A model generated the notes under the pieces. It ran no database searches. It was not told where the DNA came from and saw only the letters and a list, made by a program, of their open reading frames with translations. This document shows positions 11,801 to 60,739 of a stretch of 64,000 nt of DNA, in pieces. This DNA is from Panorpa germanica. Lineage: Eukaryota; Arthropoda; Insecta; Mecoptera; Panorpidae. Made by a program: the position numbers and the translations under genes. Numbering within the stretch: the first letter of the stretch is position 1; each line of letters starts with the position of its first letter. The DNA lies in contig OY783209.1 in NCBI GenBank assembly GCA_963678705.1, positions 14,880,001-14,944,000 of the forward strand, read 5' to 3'.

Positions 11801-14800
11801 AAGACTTTGGAATGGAGGGCAGCAATGTAGTGAAAACACCCTATAATAATCTTCAATATAATTTTGAAACTAAAGATAACAACAGTAAAGAATTTCCATT
11901 CAGATCTGCCATAGGACCACTACTGTATTTGTCAACAGAAACTAGACCTGATATTGCATTTTCAGTGAACTTTTTGGCCAGAAGTACAGAAAATCCTACA
12001 GATGAAGATGTAGTTAAAGTTAAGAGAGTGTTTAGATATTTAAAAGGAACTCAAAACAAAGGCATTATCTATAAGTACAACACTAATCAAAGTCATCTAG
12101 AAGGATATAGTGATGTAGATTGTGCTGGAGATTACGAAGCAGGACGATCTACAACAGGAGTTGTCTGTCTATAAGCAGAACGAGCAGTCATGTGGACGAG
12201 TAATAGACAATCATCGGTTGCAGTTTCAACAACTGAAGCAAAAATTGTTGCAGCAAGTGAAACTACGAAAGATCTTATTTGGCTTCGAAATCTGTTAAAG
12301 GATATTAATCAATAAACGGCAATACCTATACTCCGGATTAACAATGAAGCAGCCATAAAATTACCAAAGAGTCCAGAATTTCATAAAAGGACAAAGCATA
12401 TAAGAGTTCGTCACCTCTTTGTCAGAGAAAGAGTACAAGAAGGTGACATAGCAGTATCCAAAGTTAGCAGTGAAAACCAACTTGCAGATGCTTTTACAAA
12501 ACCACTTAATCCAGACATGAGACACTAAATACTAAAATTGGACAAGAGTGATATATAGAAATAAGTATAATACAATAAGGGAGAGTATTGAATGTTATTG
12601 TTTTATATATTATATATTTCTAGTATGTCTTTTTTTTATTGTGCGATAATTTGTAACTTAACAAAACAGTCTATTTAGAACAGTTGACTAGCGTAGTCAA
12701 ATAAATTTAGTTCCACAATATAATATAACTTATCATTATATTCAAACGGAGAACCATAACATACTAGGTTCTACAACAAATTCACCTAAACAGCTTTGAA
12801 ATTAAATAAATAGATTAAGAAGTTTAAGTAAGGTATTTGGAAATGTAGTTAGAGATGAGAACGTAAGAAACGGTCTAGAAGAGGCGGAGACAGAGTTGGA
12901 CAGTAGTGAACCTCTAAATTATGGAAAAGATATACACGTAGTTGATTTAACGCTTTTGTACAAACTAGAAGAGTGAGAGATGAAAGTAGCATTAGTGGAA
13001 GAAAAAGGGAGGACCTCTGAACCGGATGGTATTTCATATGACATAATTAAAAACTTCATAGGCAAATGAAAAGTTTGCATTTTAAAACTGTTCAATTGAA
13101 TTTTAGAAGAGTCAGTAATTTCACAGTCTTCGTTAGAAGTACAGGTGGTGCCATTATTAAAAAAGGGGAAGTGATTTGCCATCTTCTTATAGAAAAATCA
13201 ACTTTTTGAACTTTCTACGAAAAATAATAGAATTAGCGACCTTTATATGATAATAGAGTCGGAAAAATAAGAATATGAAAACCATGGCGCTATTCGTTGG
13301 CATGCATTCGGCCTATGACAATGTAAGAGCCCGGGATTAGCTAAGAATTTCTACGACGTTGAATTGCCGAGCAAACTAATGTCGCTAATAAGCAAGCTAT
13401 TTAAGAGGAGGCAAGTACATTTTTGGTTCGGAGACAAGAATGCAGAGAACTTCATAAGAGAAAATAATTTACCACAAGAAACCCCTCTAGAGTCCTTGGC
13501 TATTTAATTTGAGCGTAAAAAATAGAAAATTTCATTGATCCAGTTAACTTTTGTAGAGTATACGCAGATGATGTTGCATTGTAGTGCGGTGAAATAATAG
13601 TTAGAACGTTAAAGCAGATATGCAGGAGGTGACAGTCAAAATAGAAGAATAGTTGCTTTCGGTAAAGCTAGAGGCTAATCCCAATAAGACAGAATTATTA
13701 GGAATCGGTAAGGTAGACGAAGATGAACTAAGCTATATCTTATTTTTAAATACAAATTTATCATACAGTAAGTCTGTTATGTACTTGGGCTTTAGATTCA
13801 GTGCGAGAAAGAACGACAAAGAGATCTATAGGTACATAAGAGCTAAAAGTAAAATCCACAATTTACTCATTGAGGATGCTAAAGGGAGGAAGATGGGGTG
13901 TAAATGTAGTCCTAATGGTACAAATGTATAATGCATTAGTTAGACCGCATTTAAAGTATGCGGCTGAGGTGCTATTGGGGCTAACAAAGAAGTGACAAGA
14001 GACGTCAGAAAGGTTGCAAAGAAAGGCGTGAAGAGTGGTTATGGGAGTACTGTGTATCGCACACGCTATCAATCAATGTGGAAGCCGGAGCACTCAGTTT
14101 AACGTGTGAATAAAGTGCAAGAGCTATGATGATAAAATCGTTGACAACAGAGTGTGCTTCAAGAAGTCTGCTTTTCGTGGAATTGTAAAGAAATTATAGA
14201 AACAAAAGCAGAAAAATGACGAAAAACCCATTCCACGCGTGTTCATATATATTTCATATGTAAATCTTTCAAGAATTTTTCGAATATTTTTCTTAGAGAG
14301 TTCAAAAAGTTGGCTTTTCTATGAGAAGATGGCAAATCACTTCCCCTTCTTTAATAATGGCACCACCTGTACTTTGAACCAAGACTTGAAATTACTGACT
14401 CTACTAATATCCTATTGAACAGTTTTAAAATGCAGACTTTTCCTTTGCCTAGGAAGTTTTTAATTATGTCATATGAAATACAATCTGGTCCAGAGGTCCT
14501 CCCTTTCGCTTCCGCTAATGCTACTTTCATCTCACACTACCGATATATATCGGGTACCAAAATCCTATATGGTATTTTTTAAACGGCGCCTACTAAGTTT
14601 TTCAGATATTGATATTTTGTAGAGGACAAATTTTTAAGATTTTCTAGGTCCCTGAAATTTTCCCTGAATTTTGGTGGAAAAACTGGAAAGTTTGAAAAAT
14701 ACTTTTGCAATTATCTGACGAACTGGAAAAGATAGAGAACTGAAATATGGTATGTGTATTGAGATCATAATTGTGCACATTTGCCAATAGTTGAAGATTT

Positions 14801-26800: not shown

Positions 26801-29800
26801 ACTGCTCAAACAAGTCATAACCTAGAAATATCTACGAAGATTACGATATCATCCAAATGAATCAGCTGAACCACTTATCCACAACAGCATAGAAGTTATT
26901 TGCTTAGTTGCATAATTCTCGTATTAATACAATAGGTTAAGCTAAAGAGTACGTCATCGGTGAATGTCAAGCTCACATGTCATTTTTATGTATCCAAAAA
27001 ATTTGATGAATGTCTCTCGGGACATATTGTAAATTATGAATTAAATTAACAAAAACACTGTTTTGAATCACTACTTAATTTCAGTAAAGGAAACCTAATA
27101 GCTGTGCTGCTTATAATCTTTTAGATATAAAAATATGGGCCCAGAACATTACCAGCACATTAAGTCAGCAAATTAGTCATTAAAGTTTATTTATAATCTA
27201 TGAATTACCAATAGGCAGAGTAAAGTAACTTAAGACACATTTCGAAAATTTTTGACTAGTCTATAATTACATTATGTGTTTAGGATTTTATAAAGCTAGT
27301 GGTAGTAAATTAGTGACATGTAACAGACATTAAAGACATGTAGTCTTCAAAATTCAACAAAACTGTGTCTTCCTCACTTAGTATAGTTTTTTGCCTATTT
27401 GTAAAATAAATATTGACTTTACTATTTATGTTAAAGTTAAGGTTACTTAGTACTATAATATTTCAAATCTATTTCCTTTTATCAGATCCCCCTGACGGAA
27501 TGGAAATTTTAATTATTATGGAATTAGCTGTGCGACTTAATTTTACTTGGATAATGAAACGACCTCATCAATATGTACATGATCTTTTGCTGCCTAACAA
27601 TACGTATACCGGAGGGATTACAATTGAGTTGAGTAAGTAACATTTTTTGCAATGTGATTGAATCTATTTAATAATATGTATAAAGGTGGCCCTTACTTAC
27701 TCCTGGTAACTTTTTTTGCGATTTCTTTTGTCCTGTTTAATGCCAGTGCATGAAAAGAAAATATGTGTGAAGTTTCAGGTCAATTGGATAACGTGCTCCA
27801 AGAGCTTTGAAAATTCAAAAATCACAGAATTTTTTTTATTTATTTATCTTACGAAATATTGATTTTATACAAAAAGGTATTACGCAAAAGTTAAAGATTT
27901 ATTAAAAACAGATATATTATTATCCATCACTCTTTCTCACACGACTTACGATTTTCTAGAAATAAGAGAAATAAAGGCGAAATTTAGACTTGAGCATGAA
28001 CAAAGGTACTAGTGAGCAGAGGAAGAGAAACGATGAGGATGTGTAGCATATAATCTGAAACATTAGAGCATATTAAAAGTAGGTATAAGTTTTATGTTTT
28101 TTAGAGAATAAATATTAAATAGTATTTTGAATAAACAAGACCGTTTTGTAAGAGATTCCGATCTTTATTGAATTGTTTTTAGTAACGTTCTTTTGTTATT
28201 ACACAATTAGATCAAGTAAAAACATTACTTCTAGTTTATTAAATCTAGTCTTATAGATACTAAATCTCAATACTTTCCCTTTTTTCTTGACTCTATATAC
28301 AGAATTGAACAATTTATAAACTTAAATTAGTTGAATATAAAATATATTATACAATATATTTTCTAGATTCTCAAAAGTCCTAACTTATTATTCAAATTCA
28401 CTAGTCTTGGTTTTGGAAGTGGCTTGGTCATGATGTCAGCTATTTGATCTTCAGTAGTGATATACATTACTTGTAAAGCACCTTCCAACACTTTTTCTCT
28501 TATAAAGAAATATTTAATTCTTATGTGTTTCGTACGATGGTGGTTCTCAGGATTATGGCAAAGTTTAATCGTTGCCTGGTTGTCTATCTGAAGAGTAGGT
28601 ATTTGCTTTGGACAACCCATTTCTTCATACAATCTTGATAGCCATATAATTTCTTTGACTGCTTCATTTGCCGCCACTAGTTCTGCCTCAGTTGTTGACG
28701 TAGCAATCAATTCTTGTCTTTTACTGAACGGCTTCTCCTGCATAAGTCACTACAACTCCTGAAGTAGAGCGACCAGTCTTGTTGCATCCTCCAAAGTCTG
28801 CATCACTGTAACAGTCTAACTTGCAACTGCCATCTGCTCTAAATCGTATTCCCAGACTACAAGTACCTGCTATATAGCGAAATACCCTTTTTAATTTCGC
28901 CACATCTTGCACACTTGGACAGTCTAAGGTTCTTGACAAAACACTAACACTGTAGGCTAAATCTGGTCTAGTGCCTATCATTAGGTACATTAATGCTCCT
29001 ACAGCTTCTCTGTATAAAAAATCATGACTTTTGTCACTTTCTTGACTTTCATGTTCTCCTATCTTCACCATGGGCGTAGATACTGGTTTGCACTTGCTGA
29101 ACTTGAAACGTTCTAATAATTTCCTTGCGTACGATTGCTGACAAATTTTAATTGAACCATCTTCATAACGTTGAATTTCAAATCCTAAATAATAAGATGC
29201 TGGTTTAACGGTGATTTTAAACTCTTTCATTAAATCTTCTATAAATAAATCAGCGTCCTTTTTATTACTTGCCATAACTAGGCCATCATCAACAAACAAT
29301 GCAACCATTATCTTTTTATTTTTACGTTCTCTAATATAAAGACAAGGATCAGCATCACTGGGTCTAAACCCCGCTTCTTTTAGAAAAGTTCTAAATCTTT
29401 TATTCCAACATCTAGGAGCTTGCTTTAGCCTATATATAAACTCCTTAGTAATTTACAGACATTTTTAGTTCCATCAGTATATCCCTCTGGCTGTTCCATG
29501 TATATATCCCTATCTAAATGTCCGTATAAAAATGCTGTTGAAACATCGAACTGAATTAAATGCATCTGTTCTGTAGCTGCAATACTTAGCATAGCTCTAA
29601 TCGTGCTTAGTTTTGCTACTGGACTGAATGTTACATTAAAATCCACACCATATCTCTGACTGTAACCTTTTATAACAACTCTGGCCTTGTACTTATCTAT
29701 TGAACCATCAGGATTTGATTTGACTCTAAAAACCCATTTAGACGGTATCACTCTAGATCCTTTTGGCAAACTTGTTAGTTCCCATGTATGGTTTTCTTTT

Positions 29801-32800
29801 AAGGATTTTATTTCATTGCCCATCGCTTCTTTACAATGATTTTTATTGTTTCCACTGAGAGCTTCTTCAAAAGTTTCAGGTGTGTTGATTTGAAAAACTG
29901 TTTCTTCACCAAACATTACGTAGTCTTTTAGATATGTCGGTTTGGACAACTTTGAACGGTCTCTTAAATTTCTGGAAAACTCTGAGAGTGGATCTTCTCT
30001 TTCTTCGTCTGTTAAATCATTCTGTTCATTCTCAGACGATTCTTCAGATTCTGATTCACTGTCTTGTCCTCTATTCTTATTAGACACCTCTTGGTTGGTT
30101 TGTTTTTCCTCAATTTGAACTTCTATGTCCTTAAATGGCAACTTTACGTACTCACACTTACTTAACTTTTCTTGAAATAAAACATCTTTACTCAGTATAA
30201 CTTTATTTTCTTCTTTTACTTAGATGTGATAACGCTCATCTCCGTCATAGCCTATCTATCAGGTAACCTTTTATGGCTTTCTTATCCATTTTCTTCCGTC
30301 TCTGATCTGGAATGTGAGTGTAGCACACTGAACCAATTACTCTTAAATGTATTATTCTTGGTTTCTTACCTATCCATAATTTATAGGGACTGACACCTTC
30401 TACAGACGATTTCCCAGTTCTTTTTAGGATGTACAGTGACGTTGATACAAGCTCTGCCCACATAGCTTTTGGAAAAATTAAATTCTCATTAGAATATTTA
30501 AATGTTCTTGCCATTTCAATGATTGTTCTAAATAATTGTTTAATGATTGTTGAATAAATTGTTTCAATGATTGTTCTAAAATCTCTCTCACAAATCGCAT
30601 TTTGCTGAGGCGTGTATGGAGCTGTCAACCTTTGTGTGACCCCTGCTGCACTAAGAATCTCTCTGATTTCTTTGTTGTCCATTTCACCACCATTGTCACT
30701 AATCAATTCTCTGATCGAATGGCCCAACATCTTTGTATGCGAAAGTATTTTTTTTAGCATTTCTTTTACCTCTGATTTTTCAGACATCAGGTAACCATAT
30801 CGAAACTTAGTATAGTTGTCCTTAAAAACAACTAAGTACTTTTTCTTATTAAATGACTGATCAAAAGGTCCACATACGTCGGCCAAAAATAATTCTCCTG
30901 GTTTTGTTGATTTTTCCCTATGAGCAAATGGTAGCCTATGTGCTTTGCCATAGATGCAAGGCTAACATAATCTTTTGGAACTTTCAGATGCAACTCTTTT
31001 TGCATTTTAGCTAGTACGTGCCTTTTATCTTGATGGCCCAACCCCTCGTGGTACAATTGCAATTTATTATCAACAAAATTTACCTCAGGGTTTCTTATTG
31101 GTAGTACTGGTGTAATTTTTGCCTCGAATAAAGTACCTCCTAGTTCTCTTGTTCCATTTAGCATCAACTTTCCCTGATTTGAGAGCCTGCACTTGGTCGC
31201 TGTTGACTTAAATACACTCTCTGGATTCTTGCCTTGTGCTGCTAAAACAGAGAACAAATTTCTGCTCAAATTTGGTACATACCAGACATCCTTCAACAAA
31301 AATTCTTTTCCAGTTTCCAAGATTCTTGTTTTTACAGTTCCTGATCCTATGGCGGGAAGGACTTCTTTTCCTGCAGATCTTATACCAGATGGAGCTTTGA
31401 ATTCTTTAAAATCTATGTAATACAAATCACTATTTGTTACATGTCTTGTCGCTCCATTGTCTATCCACCATCTTGAAGAGTGAGTAGACGACTCTGCTGG
31501 CATAGCCTCTTCTTCAAAAAACATAGTCCTGTAACAGCTGTTGAAGCCTGTTGGTTTTTCTTTGGTCTTCCATCAGAAATCCACTTTTGGCAATCTTTAA
31601 CCCAATGCCCAACCCGTTTGCAGTAATTACATGTAAACTTATTTTGTTTCGTCCTAACTTTGCTCTTCTTATACTTTGTGTTACCTACAACTAATGCCTC
31701 TTCTCTCTCTGGAGAAACTAAACTTGTACTTTTTTGTGTCATAAAGTTCCTTTCAAAGGAACAAAGTTGAATCGTCAAATCATCAAATGTCTTATTCGTA
31801 TCATCTTTTAACAGCATATAACTTGATTTAAAAGTAATAAATGTACTTGGCAAAATATGCAGCGTCTTACATAGTAATAATAAGTCTGGTAAAGTATTCT
31901 CATTTTTCGCTTTAAGACTATTATTTAATTCACTCGATAGTGATTTAAGCTTAGCTATATGTGTTGCTACGTCGTCACTATCAATCCAGTTAAATGAAAA
32001 GAAATCCGTACAGACCTTAAATAACTGGTCTTTTGACGATGCCTCAAACTGCTGTCTTAACATATTCCAAGCATCAAATGCTGTCTGCTGATTTATTATT
32101 TTTTGGTACACTGCATCCGTAACAGAGCTTGCGATCATTGATTTAGCGTAGCTATTTGATTTTCTAAATAAATCACATTTGGACTTGTGCTCTTGCTTTT
32201 CAGATTCTGTAGCTCCTTCTTTGAGCTCTTTTGGTTTTATAAGCTTACCATCTATTACATCTAGAGCACCTTCATGATAATCCAAAAGATCTCTTATCTT
32301 GCGCTTCCAAATTGGCCAATCTAACTCACCTGTTAATGGTTTTATATGTTTATAAAACTCCATTTTCTTTTTAACTATTGTATTCAGACTGATAATACAA
32401 TTTAAAAATATGAATTTCCGTTTGTTTATCAAAATAATTTTTAAGAAACACTAATATCACTAACTTTGATATTTGTTAATTCTCAACCTTTACTTAATAC
32501 AAATACGTAACTGGGTCCATAACCTTTTATGTTTTTTAGAGAATAAATATTAAATAGTATTTTGAATAAACAAGACCGTTTTGTAAGAGATTCCGATCTT
32601 TATTGAATTGTTTTTAGTAACGTTCTTTTGTTATTACACAATTAGATAAAGTAAAAACATTACTTCTAGTTTATTAAATTTGGTCTTATAGATACTAAAT
32701 CTCAATAATAAGAAGCATTTCGACCTGCTTCTACCTGCATTTTCGACCTGCAAAGCAACCCTACAAAAAAAAAGTATAAATATAGAAACAATTTAATTGA

Positions 32801-35800: not shown

Positions 35801-38800
35801 CGAGAATAACCCCCTTGTAAGGCGAGTAGGAGCAAGGGTGCCGCAGATAGAAGAAAGAGTTAAGAGAAAGTCGGTACAACCAGGCGAAGTTGTGTGCATG
35901 AGGAGTAGCAGACGAGAGCAATAATAGACGAGAGTGGAGACAAGGAAATGGATATAAGCTACACATATCTGGCGGGGTTGACAGGAGAAGTGATTGGGAA
36001 AGAAAGCATCAGTGATATGATCATGCTACTGGAAAAAATTAAAACCATCTCGGCAAGGGAAGGAAGAAAGGAACTTGTATTTGTCTGCTTAAATGATGGA
36101 CTGGAGTTCCATCTCAGAAAAATAGTAGAGATGATGCTCAGGGAAGAGGAGTATAATATTACAATATACACCAGAACCGAGGAGCAAAAAGTGCAGGAGG
36201 GAAACCGACAAGCATGGCAAAAGGTAGCAAGAAACGGACACAAAAACAGCAAGGAAACCCTTGTTGTTAAACCGCGGGAAGCCGGAAAAACATATGTGGA
36301 TATAGTCAAGGAGCTGAAGAAAAATATCGACATAGATATACTGGACGTGGAAATAAAAAGCATTGCGAAAACAAAGGAGGGATACGTAAAACTAAGTCTA
36401 GTAGGTGGACAAAGAGGAAACGGAGTGTCATTAATGGAAGCTGTGCACGAAAAAATGAAAAATTCAGTGGAAGCTGAACTAGTACATAAACAACGAAGTA
36501 TTGTAATCATCGACATAGATGAAGCCACTAACGAGGAGGAAGTAGTGGACTCTATAGAAATGGAACTAAATGACTCAAAAATTGGGAAGAAAGACATTAC
36601 CATTACTATGTCACAAAAGGCTAACAGTAGGGGACTAAGATACGCAAACATAATGCTACCAGTCGAGGGTGCGCATAAGCTGGCAAGCAAAAAAAGAATT
36701 AGAATAGGATGGATGAGATGCAGGGTAATAGAAAGATTAGCCCCAGTTAGATGTTTTAAATGCCAGAACTTTGGACATTTCGCGAGCTCATGTAACAACA
36801 AGGAAGATACGAGCGATAAATGCCTGAGGTGCGGAGAGAAAGGACACAAGGCCAAAGAATGTGCAAACGAAGTGTATTGCTGGGCCTGCAAAATAAAAGG
36901 ACATAGTGCGAGAGATATGATTTGTCCTAAATATAGAAAGCTATTGGGAGAATTGCGGAGAACCAGGATTGATCCAAAAAAACCAAATGGTGATTAAAAT
37001 GATGCAAGTTAATGTAGACCGGGGAGTAGCAGCGTTCGATTTAGTACATAGTACCTGCTTCAATAAAAACATAGATGTTGCTATAGTAGCTGAACCCAAC
37101 AAGAAACAAGCTAGTAGAGGTTTCTGGTTTAAAGACCTAAACATCGACGCAGCAATTAGAATATTCAACAAAAAAGTTAATGTTCTTAAATGCGACACTG
37201 GGCAGAAAGACTTCGTATGGGTAGAACTAGAGGAATTCGTAATATACTCGTGCTATGCATCACCTAATATACCAGAGCAAGAATTTGTAAAGTACCTCCA
37301 ACGCCTGGGGGAAAACATTAGGAGGCAAAGCAAAGAGGTGATCATAGCAGGCGACCTAAATGCGAAGTCTCTAACATGGGGCTCTACCGTCGAAGACAAG
37401 AGAGGCCGAGCGTTGATGGAATGGATGGCCGAGCATGCAATGGTGATTCACAACAAAGGCAATGATCCAACCTTTGTGAGGAGGCAAAGCAGTTCTCACA
37501 TAGACGTCACAATAACCTCTGAAAAACTCGCTGACAAGATAATGGGGTGGAAGGTATCGGACGAAGAAAATCTCAGCTTCCATAGGAACTTATACTATGA
37601 AGTAAAGCTGGGGAACACTGAGAGCAAACAAACGACGGGAATGAAGTGGAAAGTACAGAAGGAAAGATTATCCGTCTTCGCTGCGATTCTGGAAGAGGAA
37701 TTTGGAAGAGCTCCAATAATAAATGCAAACACCTGCATAGAAATGATTAGGAGAGCGGCAGATCAGACGTTTACAAAAAATGGTCCGGGAGGTAAACGGA
37801 GCCCAGTCTACTGGTGGAACAACAAAGTTGCGCTTCTCAGAAAGGATTGTCTCACAGCGAGAAGGAAGTTAACCAGAGGAAACAAAAGTAGGGTCTGCAC
37901 AGAGGAAGAAAAGGAAAGCCTAAGGAACACCTACAGGGAAACGAGGAAGGCGCTTAAAAATGAAATCATCGCAGCAAAGCAGGAGTCATGGAAACAAATC
38001 TGTGAAGAAGTGACCGAGACATCTGGGGCATGGGATACAAAATAGTGTGCAAAAAATTCAGTACAATGCCACAGATTAAGATTGGGAAAGAAAAGCTAAA
38101 AGCAGTCGTTAGCGAACTATTTCCAACACGCAGGGAGAGACATTGGGCAGAGGAAAGTCCCAAAATAAGTGCTATTCCGTATTTTTCGGAAGAGGAGCTC
38201 GGTACAGCAGTAGAACGTATGAAAAGTGGAAAGTCTCCAGGACCGGACCAAATCCCACCAGAGCTAATCAAAGCGGCGATTACCAAAGTTCCGAATATGT
38301 TCCTTAAGGTGGTAAATGATCAACTGGAAGAGGGGGTTTTCCCCAAAGTATGGAAAACTGCAAAGCTAGTACTCATACAAAAACCCAAAAAACCAGGAGA
38401 CGTGGAAGAGAAGTACAGACCGATATGCCTCTTAGACTCGATGGGGAAACTATTTGAACAGCTAATAGCGAAAAGACTGAATGAGGAAGTCGACGACAAA
38501 CTGTCGGGAAACCAATTCGGTTTCAGAAAAAGGAAGTCCACCATTGACGCAATGAAGAAAATAAAGGAGGTGGTACAAAACATTAAAAAAAGGGCCCATC
38601 GAAATAGGAAATACGCTGTGCTGGTCACACTTGACATCAAAAACGCTTTTAACACTGCGCCATGGGAAGGCATCATGGAAGCGTTAGAGCAACTCAATGT
38701 CAGTAAGTACCTTACAAAAATAATAGGCAGCTATTTAAAGGACCGATCTATAATAGTAGATGGAGAACAGATGAGGGTTACATGTGGAGTACCACAGGGC

Positions 38801-41800
38801 TCAGTGCTAGGACCACTGCTGTCGAACATCCTGTACGATGATGTACTGAAGACGAGACTACCAGAGGGTGCAACAGTACTCGGATTTGCGGATGATACAG
38901 CGCTCATAGTAGAAGCAAAGACTGAAGAAATACTAACAGCTCATACGAATCTAGCCCTAAACAGAATAGAGCAGGCGATTGCCAGGAAACAGCTGCAGCT
39001 AGCGGCGGAAAAAACAGAGGCTATTGTACTATATGGGGGTAGAAAGTTGAGAGAGGTCACAGTCGAGGTGGGCGGGATGAGCATCAAAACCAAAGAGAGC
39101 CTCAAATATCTGGGAGTACACATTAGTAGAAACAATGACATGAGGAAGCACGTTACCGAAACGGCGCGGAAAGCTGAGCAAACAATGATGGCACTCAGCA
39201 GGTTAATGCCAAATCTAAGTGGACCTAAAGCCAGCAAAAGGAGGATCCTAGGGGTGGTGGTCCACTCAATAATGTTGTACGCGGCACCAATATGGGGAGA
39301 GATAATGGACAAAAAGAAGTACAGGAACATCCTAAGTGGAGTGCAGAGAAGGCTGGCAATTCGGGTGGGCAGCGCTTATAGAACTATTTCGGCGGAGGCG
39401 ATTCAGGTGATAACCGGGATAGAACCTCTAGAGCTAATGGTACCAGAACGGGGAAAAACCTTCTCAGAAGGAGAGGCCCAAAGAAAAGAGGCAAAAAAGC
39501 AAACGGTGAACAAGTGGCAAGAAGAGTGGGAAAAAGACAACAGAAAGGCAAAATGGACTAAAAAACTTATTAAAAACGTGGAAAACTGGAATAACCGGAA
39601 GCATGGGGAAGTAGACTACTACATCACCCAACTTCTAGGAGGGCATGGCTGTTATGGAGCCTATCGAAATAGATTCCACATAAGGGATACCGCAGAATGC
39701 TGGTATTGCGGTGATACGGATACACCAGAACATACGTTCTTTAAGTGTAAGCAATGGACAATGGAAAGAGAACGGGCGCAGCGCATCACTCAAGCGACTC
39801 TCACAGTGGACAATATTGTAGACGTAATGCTGGCCAACAAAGAACACTGGAATGCCATCCGCGACTTTGCTACATCAGTAATAAAGAAAAAGGAAGCGGC
39901 AGTGAACAAAAAATAGAGTAAGAGCAAGACCCAGTTTGAAGTAATGCTATGCGGTCCCAGACTGTGGTCTAGAAGAAGAGAGGGGGAGTTTTAGTTGGTA
40001 GGCGCCCTCACAAGAGAGTGAATCCAACACTTCCTGCTAAGGGATTGCAGGAGTAAGTCTTGTGGAAGATTTCTCCTCCTCACCACAAAAAAAAAAAAAA
40101 AAAAAATACAAGTTATTTATGTAACGCTGTTAATATGAGACAATAACTAAAAACTTTAAAAATCAATTTGTGTAATAAATGACCAATGTATCACGCATAT
40201 ATATTTAGTTGATCGTTTAATACTCTCAACGGAGAAGGACTATGTTGAGTATTGCGTAGGTCAAGCAAACATATGTAACGCATTTTTATATAGTTTTTAA
40301 TTTAAATGTTTCTCTTTGAAAGTGTCCGCAAATTGAACCCTGTTTTTATTGAATTGAATATTGAACATTGTTTACATAATATTCAATTATTCAAATATTT
40401 TATTGCTATATTAAACCTTCTCCGCCTAAGAGAAAAGAATTTCTTGTTATATTGTTAGCCTCTTCCACATTGTTTTAAAGTTAGATTTTTTGTTAGTTTT
40501 TAAGTTAGTTCTAAAATAAGAGTTGTAATTATACGTTCATACGGTAAAAGTTAAAATATATTGTATTAAGTTTACAATCGTTATTTTCTTCACAAATAAA
40601 TCCCTACCCCCAGATAGAGATTTATAAAATAAAAAATATATAATTGAATTAAATAAAAAATCAAGTAATAAATTCGCGCTCGATTAAGTTAATTATTATT
40701 ATTAATTGTTTATTGTTCCCTTTTCGGCTTTACAATCTACATTCTTAAATACATTTCATATACTTCAACTTACAATTAAATTTTACATTATTCTAAACCT
40801 TTTTATTTCCAAAAGTACTTTCTGCTTCTTCTTCTCTTGACCCTCTTCATTCATTTTCCCTAGTCTTCCTTCTGTACTGGTCTATTCCCTAGTCTATTTT
40901 TCTGGGCAGAAGTTTAACTGTTTCCTCGCTACTTCTTTCTTTCTCCTGCTTCCTGTTCCTTGTGCCACACAGCCACCAGCTTATTTATTCTCCTGTTTTT
41001 CCTTTCCTTCTTACTATTTCCGCCATCCACCTCTTTCCTTCACTGCCTCCCTTTAATAGCTGGCCAATATTCCTTTCGCTTGCTACTTTTTCCTTACACT
41101 CAAACTTAATGTGCTCCAGTGTTTCGTCCTCCGCTCCACACATTCTACACTTTCTTTCCTCACTCTTTTCCCAGTATCTGTTTTCTTTTTCCTCATTTCC
41201 CAATCTAAACCTTGCTGTTCCTCTTATGTGTTTTATGTCTTTTTCTATAAGGTACTGAGGTACATTATTTTCCCATAACCTCTTATATCTTTTATTGTAG
41301 TTACTTTTTTCTATTTTTCCCATTCTCTCCTGCTGTTGTGTCTCCTTATCCCTTCTCCTTAGCTCCTCTTCCACACTTGCGCCACCTTCTCTTCTCCTCT
41401 CTGCCTCCTCGATCGCCATTCCATTCCTTTCAAAGTACTCCTTTCTCTTTTTTGGACCTCTTTCCCCCCCATTCTTTATGTTATCCTCTCTTATTTTCTT
41501 TAAAATTTTGCTTTCCGCTCTGTTCAATTTCTTCTCGTATTTTACTGCTCTTTCCCCTGTTTTAATTCGTATCTTATCTCTTTTTAGCTCCTCCATCACC
41601 ATGTATCCTGGCGTGCACCTGTCCAGCCCTAGTACCCATTTCATATATCTCACCTGTATTCTTTCCAACTTTTCTTGTTCCTTCCACCCCCAAACCTCTG
41701 CTCCATATAACATCATACTGGCTATCAGTCTATCAAATATCCATATTCTTTTTTTTAATGTCCCCCCCAAATACCTTTTCCCTAGTCCCCATACCCGTCG

Positions 41801-52439: not shown

Positions 52440-53158
52440 TATGTGCCTTGCGGCTTAGAATCTCCAGTATTATATTTCGTAATACATTTCATTCTTATAT
52501 TCAAACGTACACAATTCTAGACTTTTATTACTTCCAGAAGTATTTTCTGCTTGTTTTTCTGTTCACCTCTATCTGTTCATTTTCCCTATTCCTACTTCAT
52601 TCTCACCGTTTCTTCACCTTTTGTCTTCTTTGTCTCCTCTCGACAAACCCTCTATTGTATTTTCACTGTACTCCTTCCCTTCTGTCTTCATTTTCACTTC
52701 TCCCACCGTTTACGTCTATCACTTTGCTTCTTTTGTCCGACCATTGAGCTTATACTAGGAAAAATATTCCCTCCACATTTACATTGTGGTTTGGAATCGC
52801 AACTATGTGTTCGAATGGTTTTATTAGACATCAATTCTGTTTGACATCACTTTTACTCTGCCGTTCCTTCTCTTTCCTTGTTCCTTTTCTCTATCTCCGC
52901 CATCCACCTCTTCTCTTCACTGCCACCGTTTAATAACTGCACAATATTCTTCTTGCTTATTACCTTTTTCTGACATTAAAACTTAATGTGTTTCAATGTT
53001 TCAGTCTTCGTTCCGCACACACCACATTCTTTCATCATTTCATCATTCATTCTTTCCTCGATATTTGCCCAGTATCTGTTTCCTTTCTCCTCGTTTCCCA
53101 ATCTAAATCTGTCAATACATTTCATGTTTTTTGTGTCTTGTTCTTTTAACTATTGTGG
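52440..53158 (-). pseudogene. Family C LINE 3' fragment, part 1
   Basis: Aligns with 40730-41265 of family C: 3' tail AATTAATTA, then blocks encoding the C-terminal CCHC-like domain (AGTATCTGTTTCC and TTTCCCAATCTAAA on the + strand). It is degenerate. Interrupted at 53158 by the Foldback-like element and resumes at 57432. Confidence 0.75.
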
Positions 53159-53408
53159 ACGTCGCTGAAGTTAGCGAAAATTTACAGCGAATATATCGAA
53201 AATGCGCAGTACTAGTGGTGTCAAACTGACATTCGCGCAAAAGACTATATACTTGTTGGATTTGATATTTGCAAGTGAATTATGTTTTTTATTTAAATAA
53301 ATAGTTTACAATGCGTACGCAAAAAATAAAAAAAACATAATAAATAATAATAATATGGTATAAATACCATATATTTGAATCAGACAAAAAGGGTTTATAG
53401 CACACATG

Positions 53409-55093
53409 GCAAATGTTTATTTTATCCGGAAGTGACTAAAATTAACGGCTTAAATTTTGCAGTGAGCTTAGTAATATTATAACTAATTAAATAAATACAA
53501 TTTGAATCATCTTAGGTATATTAGAAAAAAAACTACAGACATCAGAAATTCCACAATTCAAATTCACTGCTAGCATATGAACAGGATTTGTAGTAACCTT
53601 AGAAAATGTTTATTTTATCCGGAAGTGACTAAAATAAACGGCTTAAATTTTGCAGTGAGCTTAGTAATATTATAACTAATTAAATAAATACAATTTGAAT
53701 CATCTTAGGTATATTAGATAAAAAACTACAGACATCAGAAATTCCACAATTCAAATTCACTGCTAGCATATGAACAGGATTTGTAGTAACCTTAGAAAAT
53801 GTTTATTTTATCCGGAAGTGACTAAAATAAACGGCTTAAATTTTGCAGTGAGCTTAGTAATATTATAACTAATTAAATAAATACAATTTGAATCATCTTA
53901 GGTATATTAGATAAAAAACTACAGACATCAGAAATTCCACAATTCAAATTCACTGCTAGCATATGAACAGGATTTGTAGTAACCTTAGAAAATGTTTATT
54001 TTATCCGGAAGTGACTAAAATAAACGGCTTAAATTTTGCAGTGAGCTTAGTAATATTATAACTAATTAAATAAATACAATTTGAATCATCTTAGGTATAT
54101 TAGATAAAAAACTACAGACATCAGAAATTCCACAATTCAAATTCACTGCTAGCATATGAACAGGATTTGTAGTAACCTTAGAAAATGTTTATTTTATCCG
54201 GAAGTGACTAAAATAAACGGCTTAAATTTTGCAGTGAGCTTAGTAATATTATAACTAATTAAATAAATACAATTTGAATCATCTTAGGTATATTAGATAA
54301 AAAACTACAGACATCAGAAATTCCACAATTCAAATTCACTGCTAGCATATGAACAGGATTTGTAGTAACCTTAGAAAATGTTTATTTTATCCGGAAGTGA
54401 CTAAAATAAACGGCTTAAATTTTGCAGTGAGCTTAGTAATATTATAACTAATTAAATAAATACAATTTGAATCATCTTAGGTATATTAGATAAAAAACTA
54501 CAGACATCAGAAATTCCACAATTCAAATTCACTGCTAGCATATGAACAGGATTTGTAGTAACCTTAGAAAATGTTTATTTTATCCGGAAGTGACTAAAAT
54601 AAACGGCTTTAATTTTGCAGTGAGCTTAGTAATATTATAACTAATTAAATAAATACAATTTGAATCATCTTAGGTATATTAGATAAAAAACTACAGACAT
54701 CAGAAATTCCACAATTCAAATTCACTGCTAGCATATGAACAGGATTTGTAGTAACCTTAGAAAATGTTTATTTTATCCGGAAGTGACTAAAATAAACGGC
54801 TTAAATTTTGCAGTGAGCTTAGTAATATTATAACTAATTAAATAAATACAATTTGAATCATCTTAGGTATATTAGATAAAAAACTACAGACATCAGAAAT
54901 TCCACAATTCAAATTCACTGCTAGCATATGAACAGGATTTGTAGTAACCTTAGAAAATGTTTATTTTATCCGGAAGTGACTAAAATAAACGGCTTTAATT
55001 TTGCAGTGAGCTTAGTAATATTATAACTAATTAAATAAATACAATTTGAATCATCTTAGGTATATTAGATAAAAAACTACAGACATCAGAAAT
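53409..55093 (+). repeat. 193-bp tandem array in the left arm, about 8.7 copies
   Basis: Units begin at about 53409, 53602, 53795, 53988, 54181, 54374, 54567, 54760 and 54953 (marker AAAATGTTTATTTTATCCGG), every 193 bp exactly. Units are nearly identical; the first differs a little, two carry CTTTAATTT for CTTAAATTT, and the last is cut at CATCAGAAATC. Near identity implies recent expansion or homogenisation. Confidence 0.95.
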
Positions 55094-55468
55094 CAGAATA
55101 ATCAGTGGTTATTTTCTCCGAACAACATTCAAATACAATGATAGAATTAGGAAAAAATTAAATCAATTTTTCAAACATACTGTTTAATTTCTTCATGTAC
55201 TTTCAGCATTCCTTTCAGATTCCAGTGCAATTGATCTTTTTTACAGTTCTTTATGTAAAATCTGTAATGGTTAAAAGTATATATTTAGTAAATGTATTAA
55301 CTATTTATTTAAATTCTTTATTGAGTATAAATTTCTTGTTCTTACTGTTCGAAGAGGTGTGTGTTTACTTTGTTATTTTTTAAAAATATTTCTCGAATAT
55401 CAATAACTTTAATATAAGGATCTGAAATAAATTTTTTTTTTAAATAAATGTCTTACAATACAGGTATA

Positions 55469-56397
55469 TCAGTAACGTATCTTACGGTGTTTTGGCAATG
55501 TACAAATTTTTCTATTATACTTGTTCAACATTTTTATTTTGTCTAGATTATTTTCCCATATTTGCGGAGTGGGTAATGTCAACCATATGGCTTTGGTCGT
55601 ACTATGCCTTAATATGTTTGCAATTCTTCTAATATTATTGCCAAAGGCTTGGTGGTCTTTCCCCTAAAAACAAATGCGAGAGTATTTTATATTTTTGTAT
55701 AAATAATTATATGTAAGGTTCTATGTTATTTTATACTTACTTTAATTATGTCGTTTATTCTAATCATTATTAGAGCAGTTTGTTTTAATAGAGGATTTCC
55801 TCTACATCTCCTTATATGCTCTAATAAGTTAGCAGATTTTCTACCACTTTTCGCAAAGTCGATTTCATTATATCCGATTTTTTTTTTATTCATAAGTTGT
55901 TTTCCATATCTCACGAGATAGCTACTTCCATATAGAGTCAAGCTAGAATACTTGAAGATTGAAAATAAATGTACTTTGATATATTGAATTGTATTTACAA
56001 ACTTTGTTATTTTTAAAAATATTTTTTTATACTTTTACTTACGAGTTCATTATTTTCCGATCGATTCTTCTTGGCTTTACATTGATTTAATGGAGTAAAT
56101 TTTAATTTTCCATCCTCTAAATTATAAACAGTTACTGGATGCATTCTCTAAAATACAATTTACTACTATTTATAATGTTCTAAAAAATTTCTGAGTTGTA
56201 TCTTGATTTAAGCTATAACTTACCCGCAAATGACTGTAACAATTTAATATTGAATACTCAATATTGCTGAACAATTTTGTTGCGCAGATATTGCATTCTG
56301 CCTTCAACAATTCATTGTCGTTGGATTGTAAACTTTTAAAATTACTACTTATTACAAGTGGTACAGTTGAAATAAAGGAAGACATGATATTAAACAA
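55469..56397 (-). CDS. BED-like zinc finger plus SGNH-like protein, 4 exons: 56397-56224, 56147-56043, 55950-55741, 55663-55469
   Basis: All exons join in phase 0 with GT-AG introns of 76, 92 and 77 bp (donors GTAAGT each time), giving 227 aa and TGA at 55469-55471, with no stop. Residues 1-93: a zinc-finger pattern CNIC...HLRRMH, like BED/C2H2 fingers. Exon 3: LTLYGSSYLVRYG, IDFAKSGRKSANLLEHI and LIMIRINDIIK, matching the order GDS / G / GxND of SGNH-hydrolase blocks I-III, but with GSS for GDS and RIND for GIND. Exon 4: GKDHQAFGNNIRRI and AIWLTLP. A D..H block V is not evident, so hydrolase activity is doubtful. The first Met (56397) or the Met 5 residues on may start. Family recognition is from memory; the exon model comes directly from the sequence. 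Confidence 0.7.
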
Positions 56398-56651
56398 TTT
56401 TTTTTAGACAACGTCTATAACAAGATTGTACAAAGAATGAATGCAAAATTCAAATGTCGCCAAAGTTGGCGTTGGTGACGTTGGCGCTACATTGCTACAT
56501 ACTGTAAAAAAGATCAATTGCACTGGAATCTGAAAGGAATGCTGAAAGAACATGAAGAAATTAAACAGTATGTTTGAAAAATTGATTTAATTTTTTCCTA
56601 ATTCTATCATTGTATTTGAATGTTGTTCGGAGAAAATAACCACTGATTATT

Positions 56652-57185
56652 CTGATTTCTGATGTCTGTAGTTTTTTATCTAATATACCTAAGATGATTC
56701 AAATTGTATTTATTTAATTAGTTATAATATTACTAAGCTCACTGCAAAATTTAAGCCGTTTATTTTAGTCACTTCCGGATAAAATAAACATTTTCTAAGG
56801 TTACTACAAATCCTGTTCATATGCTAGCAGTGAATTTGAATTGTGGAATTTCTGATGTCTGTAGTTTTTTATCTAATATACCTAAGATGATTCAAATTGT
56901 ATTTATTTAATTAGTTATAATATTACTAAGCTCACTGCAAAATTTAAGCCGTTTATTTTAGTCACTTTCGGATAAAATAAACATTTTCTAAGGTTACTAC
57001 AAATCCTGTTCATATGCTAGCAGTGAATTTGAATTGTGGAATTTCTGATGTCTGTAGTTTTTTATCTAATATACCTAAGATGATTCAAATTGTATTTATT
57101 TAATTAGTTATAATATTACTAAGCTCACTGCAAAATTTAAGCCGTTAATTTTAGTCACTACCGGATAAAATAAACATTTGCCATG
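56652..57185 (-). repeat. 193-bp tandem array in the right arm, about 2.7 copies
   Basis: Inverted copies of the left-arm unit; the marker CATTTTCTAAGG recurs at about 56789 and 56982, and its diverged form CATTTGCCATG at 57175 (193-bp spacing). One unit has ACTTTCGGAT for ACTTCCGGAT. Confidence 0.95.
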
Positions 57186-57431
57186 TGTGCTATAAACCCT
57201 TTTTGTCTGATTCAAATATATGGTATTTATACCATATTATTATTATTTATTATGTTTTTTTTATTTTTTGCGTACGCATTGTAAACTATTTATTTAAATA
57301 AAAAACATAATTCACTTGCAAATATCAAATCCAACAAGTATATAGTCTTTTGCGCGAATGTCAGTTTGACACCACTAGTACTGCGCATTTTCGATATATT
57401 CGCTGTAAATTTTCGCTAACTTCAGCGACGT

Positions 57432-57575
57432 CTATTGTGGCTCTCTCTCCCAAATCGTTTTATATCTTGTGTTGTAATTGATCTTCTCAATTTTTTCCAT
57501 TCTTTCCTGTTGCTGTATCTCTCTGTCTCTTCTCCTTTTCCACACTTGTGCCTTCTTCTCTTCTTCTCTCTGTGT
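57432..57575 (-). pseudogene. Family C LINE 3' fragment, part 2
   Basis: Continues the family C alignment (TTTTATATCTTGTGTTGTAA, TCTTTCCTGTTGCTGTATCT on + strand versus 41278-41345) directly after the 9-bp duplication. This shows the Foldback-like element landed in this fragment. It joins family B sequence near 57575. Confidence 0.75.
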
Positions 57576-58962
57576 GTAGTACACATGACTCCCAACACCA
57601 CTCTTAACGCCTTTCTTTGCAACCTTTCTAACGCCTAATGCTACTTTTTTGTTTTCATTAATAGCACCTCTGCCTCATACTCCAAATGCGGTCTAACTAA
57701 TGCATTATACATTTGTACCATAAGGCCTATATTTGCACTACATCTTCCTCGCGTTAGCATCCTCAATGTGTTAATATCGGGTTCTACTTTAGCTCTTATG
57801 TTCCTATAGATCTCTCTATCGTTCTTTCTCGCACTGAATCTAAATCCCAAGTACATAAGTGACTTACTATACGGTAAATTTATATTTAAAAAGAAGATAT
57901 TACTTAGCTCTTTTTCTTCTATCTTACCGATTCCTAATAATTCTGTCTTATTGGGATTAGCCTCTAGATTTACCAAACTAAACCATTCTTCTACTTTGAT
58001 CGCCGCCTCTTAGTTTAGCCGTACTACTATGACAACATCATCTGCGTATACTCTATAAAAATTAACTGGATCAATAAAATTTTCTATTTTTCTTACCCTC
58101 AAATTAAATAGACAAGAGCTCACAGGTGCTTCTTGTGGTAAACCTCACTCTCTTATGAAATTCTCTCATTTTTTGTCTCCGAACCAAAAATGTACTTCCC
58201 TCCTCTGAAATAATTTGCTAAGTAGCGATGCTAGTTTGCTCGGTATTTCTGCTAGGTAGAAATCCTTTGCTAAGCCCTGTATTCTTACATTGTCATAGGC
58301 CGCATGTATGTCGACGAAAATTTAAGATTCTGTTATCATATTAGGGTCGTTAATTCCCTCTTTTGTGCCTCTTTCTTTACTAAATCCTATTATTTCTTCC
58401 CGGAATAACTTATTTTTTTCACTCCAATGTTCCAATCTGCCTTTCAATATTTTTTCGAATAATTTTCTGAGACAGTTTATAAGGTTGATTTTTTTATAAG
58501 AAGATGGCAAATCACTTGGTTTTCCTTCATTTATTATTGGCACCACCTGTACTTCTAACCAACATTGACTCTTCTAAAATTCTATTAAACAGTTTACTTC
58601 TTTTTCTATTAAACAGTTTATTTTACAATTTAGGTTATATCTTAGTTCTTTTCTCCCTGCAACATACCATCCTTTTCCTGTTATCCTAATCAAACCATGG
58701 TTCGAGTTCAGTTGTTCATTTATCATTGACATCCATGATACATGTAATACTGAGACCATCTCTGTCCCTGGATTAATTCTGGTTTCCTCACTTTCATTTA
58801 ATAGGATTAACCCTGCATAGTCCCTTGCTTTAAGAATTTGCCCACCTCTAACATCATCTCTTTGACTGCCCATGCTACTGAATACGAATTTCAATCACCT
58901 ATATTAAATTTTGGGTCTGCAACTTTATTTACTAATCTCTCTATGTTTGCTATAGAGACTGT
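57576..58962 (-). pseudogene. Family B LINE: RT and endonuclease C-terminus, minus strand
   Basis: Minus frames: 58574-58894 (DYAGLILLNESEETRINPGT, SVLHVSWMS, KGWYVAGRKE; endonuclease end), 58322-58546 (INCLRKLFEKILKGRLEHW, FSKERGT), GLPQEAPVSS (about 58120-58150), YADDVV (about 58040-58060, catalytic box kept), and 57641-57976 (LEANPNKTELLGIGK, YLGFRFSARKND, YNALVRPHLEYEAEVLL). Homologous to 7740-8441 plus 12779-14060. Several stops; an ORF1/endonuclease start lies beyond an insertion at 58963-60739. Confidence 0.8.
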
Positions 58963-60739
58963 TTAGTACACAATCCTAAAAAATTAAAATTAAAATAAAA
59001 CTATTTAAAATAATAAAGTAAAGTTTAACTCTCACAATTTTACTGATTCAAAATTAGCTCTCACATATAAAATATTATTCACTTTTATATAAGTTATCAT
59101 GTGTTCCAAATTTTTTCGTAAATAAATAATTCTATTTATTTTACCAATTCGATTTGTTGTTGTTCGTCGTTGTTTTTCGTTGTATGTCGTTGTTTGTCGT
59201 TGTTTGTTGATTGATGTTGGATGTTGGATATTAAATATTTATTATATTATTGAAGAGTTTTGTTAGATATTGAGAATTAAAAACCAAAAGAAAAAATGAT
59301 AAGAAATGACAAAAGAAACATACTGAATTTGTGATATGAATTTTAGAAGTCTGATATTAAAGACGTATCATCATGTTTTGATTGTATCAACCGACGTTAT
59401 CCGTATGTGTTATATTTAGTAATCAAGTGTGTAATGTGAGTCTCTCGTAACAATTACCGTTATATACAAATTACTTATAAGGAGTCGTAATGAAATAATT
59501 TAACTTCATTAAAAATACATATGTTGCTAATGTCTAAGCAAAATATACGTTAACAGATATAATTAATATTAAGTAACTCCAGAGTGATATTATTATTTAA
59601 AAATTATAAAAATACAATTTCCGTACAACCTCGTAAGCATCACGTAACCATTCAAAGTCGTAACAATCTGCATATGTTAATAATATGATAAATATAAATA
59701 TGACAAATAACTTAATACTTAATACAAATAGCTAATTTAATCAAACCGCTGCCAAATTGTTTCTAGTGAAAATCATTCTGCTATTCCAAATATTGTTACC
59801 GCCCAAATGATTTAAAGCAAAACACTTCGCTATAATAAATAATAGTTTACGTTTGATAATTAGAATTATTTCATCATCATCATTGTCGCAGATGTATATT
59901 ATATATTATATTCAAGATAACCTCGTATTAGTAAACTTATAACCAATTTAGTTAGTAGAATTTATCATTGTCGTAGAACCTAGTATATCGCAATATTATC
60001 CAAACCAAACGTATCGTTGCAATACAATCAATATAGTTAGTAGAATTCATCGTTGTCGTAGAACCTAGTATATCGCAATATTATCCAAACCAAGCGTATC
60101 GTTGCAATACAATCAATTTAGTTAGTAGAATTTATCGTTGTGGTAGAACTTAGTATATCGCATTATTATCCAAACCAAACGTATCGTTGCAATACAATCA
60201 ATTTAGTTAGTAGAATTCATCGTTGTCGTAGAAACTAGTATATAGCGTTATTACCTAAAACAAACCTATCGTTGCAATATAATCAATTCAGTTAGTAGAA
60301 TTCATCGTTGTAGTAGAAACTAGTATATAGCGTTATTACCTAAAACAAACCAGTCGTTGCAATACAATCAATTTAGTTAGTAGAATTCATCGTTATCGGA
60401 GAACCTAGTAAATAGCATTATTACTTAAAACAAACCTATCGTTGCAATGCAATCAATTTAGTTAGTAGAATTCATTGTTGTCCTAGAACCTAGTATATAG
60501 CGTTATTACCTAGTTCAAACTTACCGTCACAATACAATAGATATAGATATTAGAACCATTGTTCTAGTATAATACAACCATATATATGTAGTAACAAGAA
60601 ATATTATATTTCTCTGTCAAATTAACAAATCGTACAGTCCACTTTAAATCTAAGACTTAAGCGACCAATCGAAAACACTTCAATAATTTAGAGCATTAAA
60701 AGATCGCATACGTCGTGTACAGAGACAATCGCATCTTAT
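58963..60739. mobile_element. 1.8-kb unclassified insertion in family B, with tandem repeats
   Basis: Family B reads continuously from 60740 (minus) to 58962 when this block is removed: the intact copy at about 7812-7840 reads CATGCCACAGTCTCTATA where this copy is split. No ORF, TIR or LTR was recognised. It contains a GTTGTTTGTCGTT-type low-complexity run (about 59150-59210) and the 85-bp array. Superfamily unknown. Confidence 0.6.
59948..60542. repeat. 85-bp tandem repeat, 7 units
   Basis: Units start at 59948, 60033, 60118, 60203, 60288, 60373 and 60458, each near TTAGTTAGTAGAATTCATCG and ending CAATACAATCAAT. The first three share one subtype (ATCGCAATATTATCC), the last four another (ATAGCGTTATTACC), so the array grew in at least two phases. 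Units are more diverged than the 193-bp array. Confidence 0.93.

Follow-up and report, generated by a model that had tools for sequence, protein, structure and literature searches.

The window analysed here is a stretch of 64,000 nucleotides from Panorpa germanica (assembly GCA_963678705.1, contig OY783209.1, forward-strand positions 14,880,001 to 14,944,000), and its positions 53159-57431 are a single inserted foldback element. With a probability of roughly 85%, this element is a non-autonomous derivative, by internal deletion, of a cut-and-paste transposon with two genes, of the Rehavkus/MULE (Mutator-like element) type, in which the second gene, gene B, is accessory. The full transposon would contain a central gene A, encoding a DDE-like transposase of 1170 aa that ends in an Ulp1/SENP-type protease, and a gene B of six exons present as an inverted pair, one per arm. 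In the window copy, gene A would be gone and the right gene B largely so, with the left gene B still open.

The initial annotation had described a 9-bp duplication, inverted arms with tandem repeats and a gene-bearing loop. The target-site duplication (TSD), the terminal inverted repeats (TIRs) and the arrays of a 193-bp unit were all verified, and the proposed Foldback/MULE-type plan fits by the 9-10 bp TSD and the tandem-repeat arms. The element ends are ACGTCGCTGAAG and CTTCAGCGACGT. The outer TIRs are identical at 252/252 positions and the inner arms at 153/154 (55094-55247 against 56501-56654). The right inner arm is read as the remnant of a second gene B copy because longer relatives have gene B in both arms. 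The parts of the element are:

53150..53158, no strand: left TSD, CTATTGTGG, identical to 57432-57440
53159..53410, plus strand: left outer TIR, 252 bp, starting ACGTCGCTGAAG and present at the ends of other copies
53411..55093, plus strand: left array, 193-bp unit, 8.7 copies
55094..55247, plus strand: left inner arm, containing 77 of the 91 bases of minus-strand exon 6 of gene B
56501..56654, minus strand: right inner arm, second copy of the left inner-arm stretch, read as a gene B remnant
56655..57179, minus strand: right array, 193-bp unit, 2.7 copies
57180..57431, minus strand: right outer TIR, 252 bp, matching the left outer TIR
57432..57440, no strand: right TSD, CTATTGTGG

A reverse-transcriptase-like open frame, recognized by eye, adjoins the right end (57641-58009, minus strand). 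The foldback may have inserted in or near a copy of a long interspersed nuclear element (LINE).

The host genome searched comprises 464 Mb. A query from 55000-55600 gave at least 229 matches there (39 of 235 candidates were scored), and 20 genomic stretches were retrieved, on each of which the TIR, the 193-bp unit, the inner arm and the loop were mapped. The genome-wide search for the repeat unit and the loop, suggested with the initial annotation, located further elements of like build. Nine elements, the window element among them, had both ends compared; eight are flanked by a 9-10 bp TSD, and the sole exception, L022, has none. Given these similar elements elsewhere and the TSDs in 8/9, the foldback structure is not due to chance.

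A longer relative lies at C8:3728500-3742000 (L016, L029 and L032; hereafter C8a). It has arrays on both sides and gene B copies in both arms, and its left TIR is the left TIR of the window element, two bases short; it was compared without its right TIR. Between its gene B copies lies an open frame of 1170 codons, gene A. A copy on C1 aligns over the full length and contains one internal TAA. The C-terminus of gene A is an Ulp1 protease (Peptidase_C48, E 3.5e-8; SENP1, E 8e-12), and Peptidase_C48 is matched in four of the seven gene A members, five of which are partial. The gene A alignment, inspected by eye, contains the motifs GDATG, VTDFS, HNCCNH and NALVES, which we take to be the MULE-type DDE core (D, D, CxxH, E). 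Relatives of gene A were found neither in viral_contigs nor in phages, and viral_contigs held no relatives of gene B. By eye, L016 and L017 on C8 are two copies of the longer element approximately 12 kb apart with a common open frame in the left flank, which suggests a local duplication; the gene A frame of L017 is shortened by a LINE-like piece, also identified by eye.

Gene A and gene B are linked in three lineages: lineage 1 (C8, C1), lineage 2 (L039, L050) and lineage 3 (L038). The gene A fragments of lineage 2 (L033, L039, L050) are 40-43% identical and its gene B is 58% identical; in L039 a piece of gene A stands between gene B and a piece of gene B, the same arrangement as in C8a. Lineage 3 has an open gene A of 1111 aa (45-48% identical), and exons 3-6 of gene B lie in both arms, pointing inward, with the SGNH part 36-39% identical. 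The TIR of L038 begins ACGTCGGTGAAGTTAGC and that of the window element ACGTCGCTGAAGTTAGC. The lineage 3 locus (L038, L040, L041, L042; C8:958000-977400) is a palindrome, approximately 98% identical, that runs beyond both TIRs into the flanks, and for this reason no TSD is readable at L038. It is possible that the palindrome is a large segmental inverted duplication or an assembly fault.

The initial annotation had offered two origins for the gene in the loop, an accessory protein of an autonomous relative or a captured host gene. The first is supported by the position of gene B beside a long transposase-type open frame and by the recurrence of this pairing in three lineages. A host gene captured recently and carried as a Pack-MULE-like passenger of the foldback could account for the deletion derivatives that lack gene A and retain an open gene B. 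However, gene B accompanies gene A in all three lineages, and since this linkage spans transposases just 40-48% identical, capture as a recent event is disfavoured and appears very unlikely.

Gene B of the window has six exons on the minus strand, with intron phases 0,0,0,1,2, and encodes 273 aa. Its exons are:

56224..56385, minus strand: exon 1, with the start codon and the greater part of the BED-type finger (zf-BED)
56043..56147, minus strand: exon 2, final finger residues and linker
55741..55950, minus strand: exon 3, SGNH blocks I-III (YGSSYLV, AKSGRKS, RIND)
55486..55663, minus strand: exon 4, SGNH middle; phase-1 donor GTAAGA
55346..55421, minus strand: exon 5, SGNH last strand; phase-2 donor GTAAGA overlapping an in-frame TAA
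55171..55261, minus strand: exon 6, stop and SGNH block V (DQLHWNLKG); extends into the inverted arm

The block names are those to which we presume these motifs correspond. The introns, read from splice signals and frames, are GT-AG, with donors GTAAGT in three and GTAAGA in two. A minus-strand gene with GT-AG introns in the loop was thus correctly annotated at first. Its dimensions were not: the annotated four exons and 227 aa are replaced by six exons and 273 aa, the introns are not all in phase 0, and the clean GTAAGT donors hold for three introns but not for the two with GTAAGA. The four-exon model fails as exon 4 ends at 55486 and the stop lies within intron 4. A five-exon model has its stop inside intron 5, whose donor CA/GTAAGAAC includes the TAA. 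Both models were dropped because their stops are intronic, L033 and L038 share the donors, and block V comes from exon 6. The GT donors of introns 4 and 5 are conserved in position in these two copies; L033 gene B has the same six exons and phases, and L038 has exons 3-6 with the same phases. The equivalents of block V are DQLHWNING in L033 and DLLHWNLRG in L038.

The predicted gene B product is a BED-type finger joined to an SGNH hydrolase domain. Pfam models were run on the six-exon proteins with cut-offs of 20.6 bits (zf-BED), 32.9 bits (Lipase_GDSL_2) and 27 bits (OSK). The zf-BED model scores above its cut-off in L019 (22.2 bits) and L023 (23.5) and below it in the window copy (19.9) and L033 (17.2). 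Lipase_GDSL_2 scores above its cut-off in L019 (38.3 bits, E 2.6e-9) and L038 (44.3 bits, E 3.6e-11) and below it in L023 (31.7) and L033 (31.6). The residues that define SGNH hydrolases (Ser, Gly, Asn and D-x-x-H) are present across the lineages as GSS or GDS (Ser), SG (SE in L023), GIND, and DQLH or DLLH. The window copy retains the Ser and the D-x-x-H block. The SGNH and BED assignments first made from the letters alone therefore hold by profile, a hidden Markov model search having matched both domains in family members, and the window copy itself is the weaker case.

Nine of 20 further modelled gene B copies are fully intact, as is the window copy. L024 and L025 have a stop one codon early and are otherwise intact; among the other nine, two are frameshifted, two have internal stops and five have one or more exons lacking or unmapped. 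These 20 exclude unretrieved copies and the damaged L027 and L028, the former with internal stops and an insertion. The ratio of nonsynonymous to synonymous change (dN/dS) was calculated by NG86 with our own script from the six-exon sequences of five pairs. It is 0.16, 0.41, 0.28, 0.17 and 0.19 for the SGNH part, and 0.39, 0.35, 0.61, 0.47 and 0.62 for the finger and linker. The nearest copies are too alike to judge; the window copy and C21_R, for example, differ by three nonsynonymous changes and one synonymous change (five-exon model). Neutral decay of the frame, named at the outset as a result that would count against a functional gene, was not seen: 9/20 copies are intact, and dN/dS lies below 1 (0.16-0.41 in the SGNH part). 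It is extremely unlikely that the element is a non-coding foldback whose open frame arose by chance or is decaying. The 11 of 20 modelled copies that are not fully intact (two only by the early stop) and the damaged L027 would suit such a foldback, but the six exons, splice sites and catalytic blocks are conserved at 58% identity in L033, and dN/dS is well below 1.

Several observations weigh against a two-gene transposon with a functional gene B. Both gene B copies of C8a are broken, although its gene A is open, and none of the retrieved elements combines a fully intact gene A with a fully intact gene B. The seven gene A members give no match to a Pfam DDE or MULE model, and the DDE reading of gene A, which relies on motifs picked by eye, is a lead; the longer relative anticipated by the initial annotation was located, but its DDE transposase is represented by these motifs. 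In lineage 3 the finger exons were not found. Pfam gave no Lipase_GDSL_2 match to the six-exon protein of the window copy, whose block III reads RIND where the other readable copies have G first (GIND), and the five-exon gene B profile reached a GDSL lipase in the PDB at just E 0.0076. As for selection, two L033 pairs have an SGNH-part dS of 1.3-1.4, near saturation, the dN/dS of near pairs is based on few changes, and the intactness of the nearest derivatives may merely be due to their youth.

In the two-gene transposon, gene A is most likely responsible for excision and insertion, which leave the 9-10 bp duplications. Gene B would be a helper tethered to DNA by its finger, with the 193-bp arrays perhaps serving as multiple binding sites. 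The SGNH domain may remove an ester- or thioester-linked acyl group, or merely bind a ligand. Gene B could then help integration or relieve silencing, like the MULE second genes mudrB and vanC (PMC6446971). With an Ulp1 protease in gene A, the removal of silencing marks is one possibility. An SGNH gene doubled in inverted arms, together with a transposase-protease fusion, would be an unusual toolkit for a cut-and-paste transposon.

Judged by its TSD and arms, the element comes closest to Rehavkus among named groups. The TSDs of 9-10 bp in 8/9 elements fall in the range of MULEs (8-11 bp) and near that of Rehavkus (9 bp), and minisatellite arrays are present in the inverted termini. Rehavkus (Repbase; Rehavkus-1_TC of Tribolium) likewise has a 9-bp TSD, arthropod hosts and minisatellite inverted termini, in 9.5 kb (PMC10218199, PMC6446971). 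A PHD finger is reported for the Rehavkus transposase; a profile search found none among the Pfam matches of the seven gene A members. Unlike Rehavkus, which is known here by description, the present element combines two genes, one ending in an Ulp1 protease and the other, an SGNH gene, lying within the arms. Because of the PHD result and the comparison by description, the element is classed from its sequence as Rehavkus/MULE-like and not as a member. MULEs with a second gene (MuDR mudrB, Hiun vanC, Mutyl mutB) share the 8-11 bp TSD and the extra gene (PMC6446971), whereas gene A here has no Pfam MULE match. The main text of PMC6446971 does not mention SGNH, GDSL, BED or Ulp1, and the excerpts of open-licence PMC literature searched describe no Rehavkus/MULE element with an SGNH gene. 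Mobile-element SGNH/GDSL domains are described for CR1-type LINE ORF1, for texim next to fish Helitrons and for rotifer Terminons (PMC3905857, PMC4021074, PMC6431247). In contrast to the present element, these are retroelements or Helitrons, not TIR cut-and-paste transposons, and the excerpts name no BED finger for them.

The SGNH part of gene B also resembles the OSK domain (PF17182) of Oskar, which organises the germ plasm in insects. Both are SGNH-type domains, some gene B copies match the OSK model in Pfam, and one intron coincides exactly and another nearly. Unlike gene B, OSK is without the catalytic Ser and His and belongs to a host gene in which an OST-HTH/LOTUS domain accompanies it (PMC2848206, PMC7250577). 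In gene B a BED-type finger stands in place of LOTUS, and Ser and D-x-x-H are retained. Kinship of gene B with Oskar is a lead. That both descend from one intron-bearing gene is possible, if rather doubtful; such descent would add to the transposon explanation and not replace it. The simplest route would be that a transposon gene like gene B supplied OSK, which later became non-catalytic.

Profile scores point both ways. For L033 the top Pfam hit is OSK, across the whole domain (37.7 bits, E 1.6e-9), and the model also passes its cut-off in L023 (27.4) and L019 (27.3); the window copy scores just 22.6, and L038 has no match with exon 6 (23.4 bits without it). Among 14 well-known control genomes the OSK profile matched none at E 0.001, two at 0.01 and four at 10, never above the cut-off. 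In a cyanobacterial control, however, 30 of 291 genomes match OSK at E 0.01, two of them over the cut-off (best 33.0 bits), for which reason the OSK score cannot serve to prove kinship. With OSK, three cyanobacterial SGNH proteins picked up by the gene B profile score 24.4, 23.8 and 16.8 bits. The gene B profile itself gives 26-34 bits for four bacterial proteins and 2.6 for a fifth, against 19.8 for host OSK and 14.5 for fly OSK; a host PAF-AH-like protein scores 3.9. The first bacterial proteins in this comparison were chosen by their similarity to gene B. By the cyanobacterial and gene B profile scores, OSK does not stand out on similarity of sequence alone. A PDB search at E 10 with the five-exon gene B profile missed the OSK structures. 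With hhalign, gene B and OSK align at P 5.3e-8, against 2.8e-6 for cyanobacterial SGNH and OSK, but bacteria and gene B align at 2.1e-10. In an SGNH tree, gene B groups with OSK at 72/80, with warnings of long branches, and placement of OSK with bacteria is not rejected (p-AU 0.337).

Two of the introns count for common descent. The host has an OSK-type gene (64.8 bits) with a LOTUS-like exon, recognized by eye; its last exon is supported by the fly OSK structure, the match rising from 69 to 87 bits when it is included. The comparison covers two OSK sequences, with introns known for one. By splice signals and frames, host oskar and gene B each have three introns within the domain. Following block III, a phase-0 intron occupies the same aligned column in host oskar (GSVDILL/GRN) and in all three gene B lineages (GINDIIK/GKD). 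A phase-2 intron precedes block V, at column 217 in OSK, 219 in lineages 1 and 2 and 220 in L038, and thus 2-3 columns apart. An exact coincidence of this second intron had appeared where alignment rows ended and was discarded as artefact-prone, the full domain giving the offset. Under random placement, one exact match has P 0.017, and with a second of equal phase within three codons P is 8e-4, a figure that already takes the offset into account. The third intron differs, gene B and host oskar each having one that the other lacks. The sole host Lipase_GDSL_2 match (L054, PAF-AH-like by eye) apparently has neither of these two introns, also by eye. The block V motif is LHWN..G for gene B, VLWN..G for host OSK and LFWN..G for fly OSK, whereas the four related cyanobacterial proteins have LHLS or LHLN. 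Gene B retains Ser and D-x-x-H, unlike OSK.

OSK is reported to have lost its catalytic Ser and His (PMC2848206), and its origin is attributed to transfer from bacteria (PMC7250577, PMC13389597). In the excerpts available, PMC7250577 proposes transposable-element activity just as a route for integration of bacterial DNA, and the screen in PMC13389597 excluded metazoan transposable elements. No transposon origin of OSK was found in the excerpts of open-licence PMC literature searched, and no open-licence PMC paper was found that discusses oskar introns with 'OSK domain'. It is conceivable, although unlikely, that RNA-binding OSK is a domesticated, catalytically dead descendant of a Rehavkus-like transposon helper enzyme, in which case any bacterial origin would be older still and the transposon would have been its vehicle. 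If so, an intron-bearing OSK relative with active-site residues in an insect mobile element would be a eukaryotic intermediate, and the origin of OSK would become testable through intron positions in public insect genomes.

Other repeats occur in the window. An Rfam R2_retro_el match (39864-40088, plus strand, 44.7 bits) ends long LINE-type frames at 35909-39916, the frames being read by eye. Copia-like open frames were seen by eye at 28363-32450 (minus strand) and 8694-12174 (plus strand). A separate tandem array of seven copies of an 85-bp unit lies at 59944-60538.

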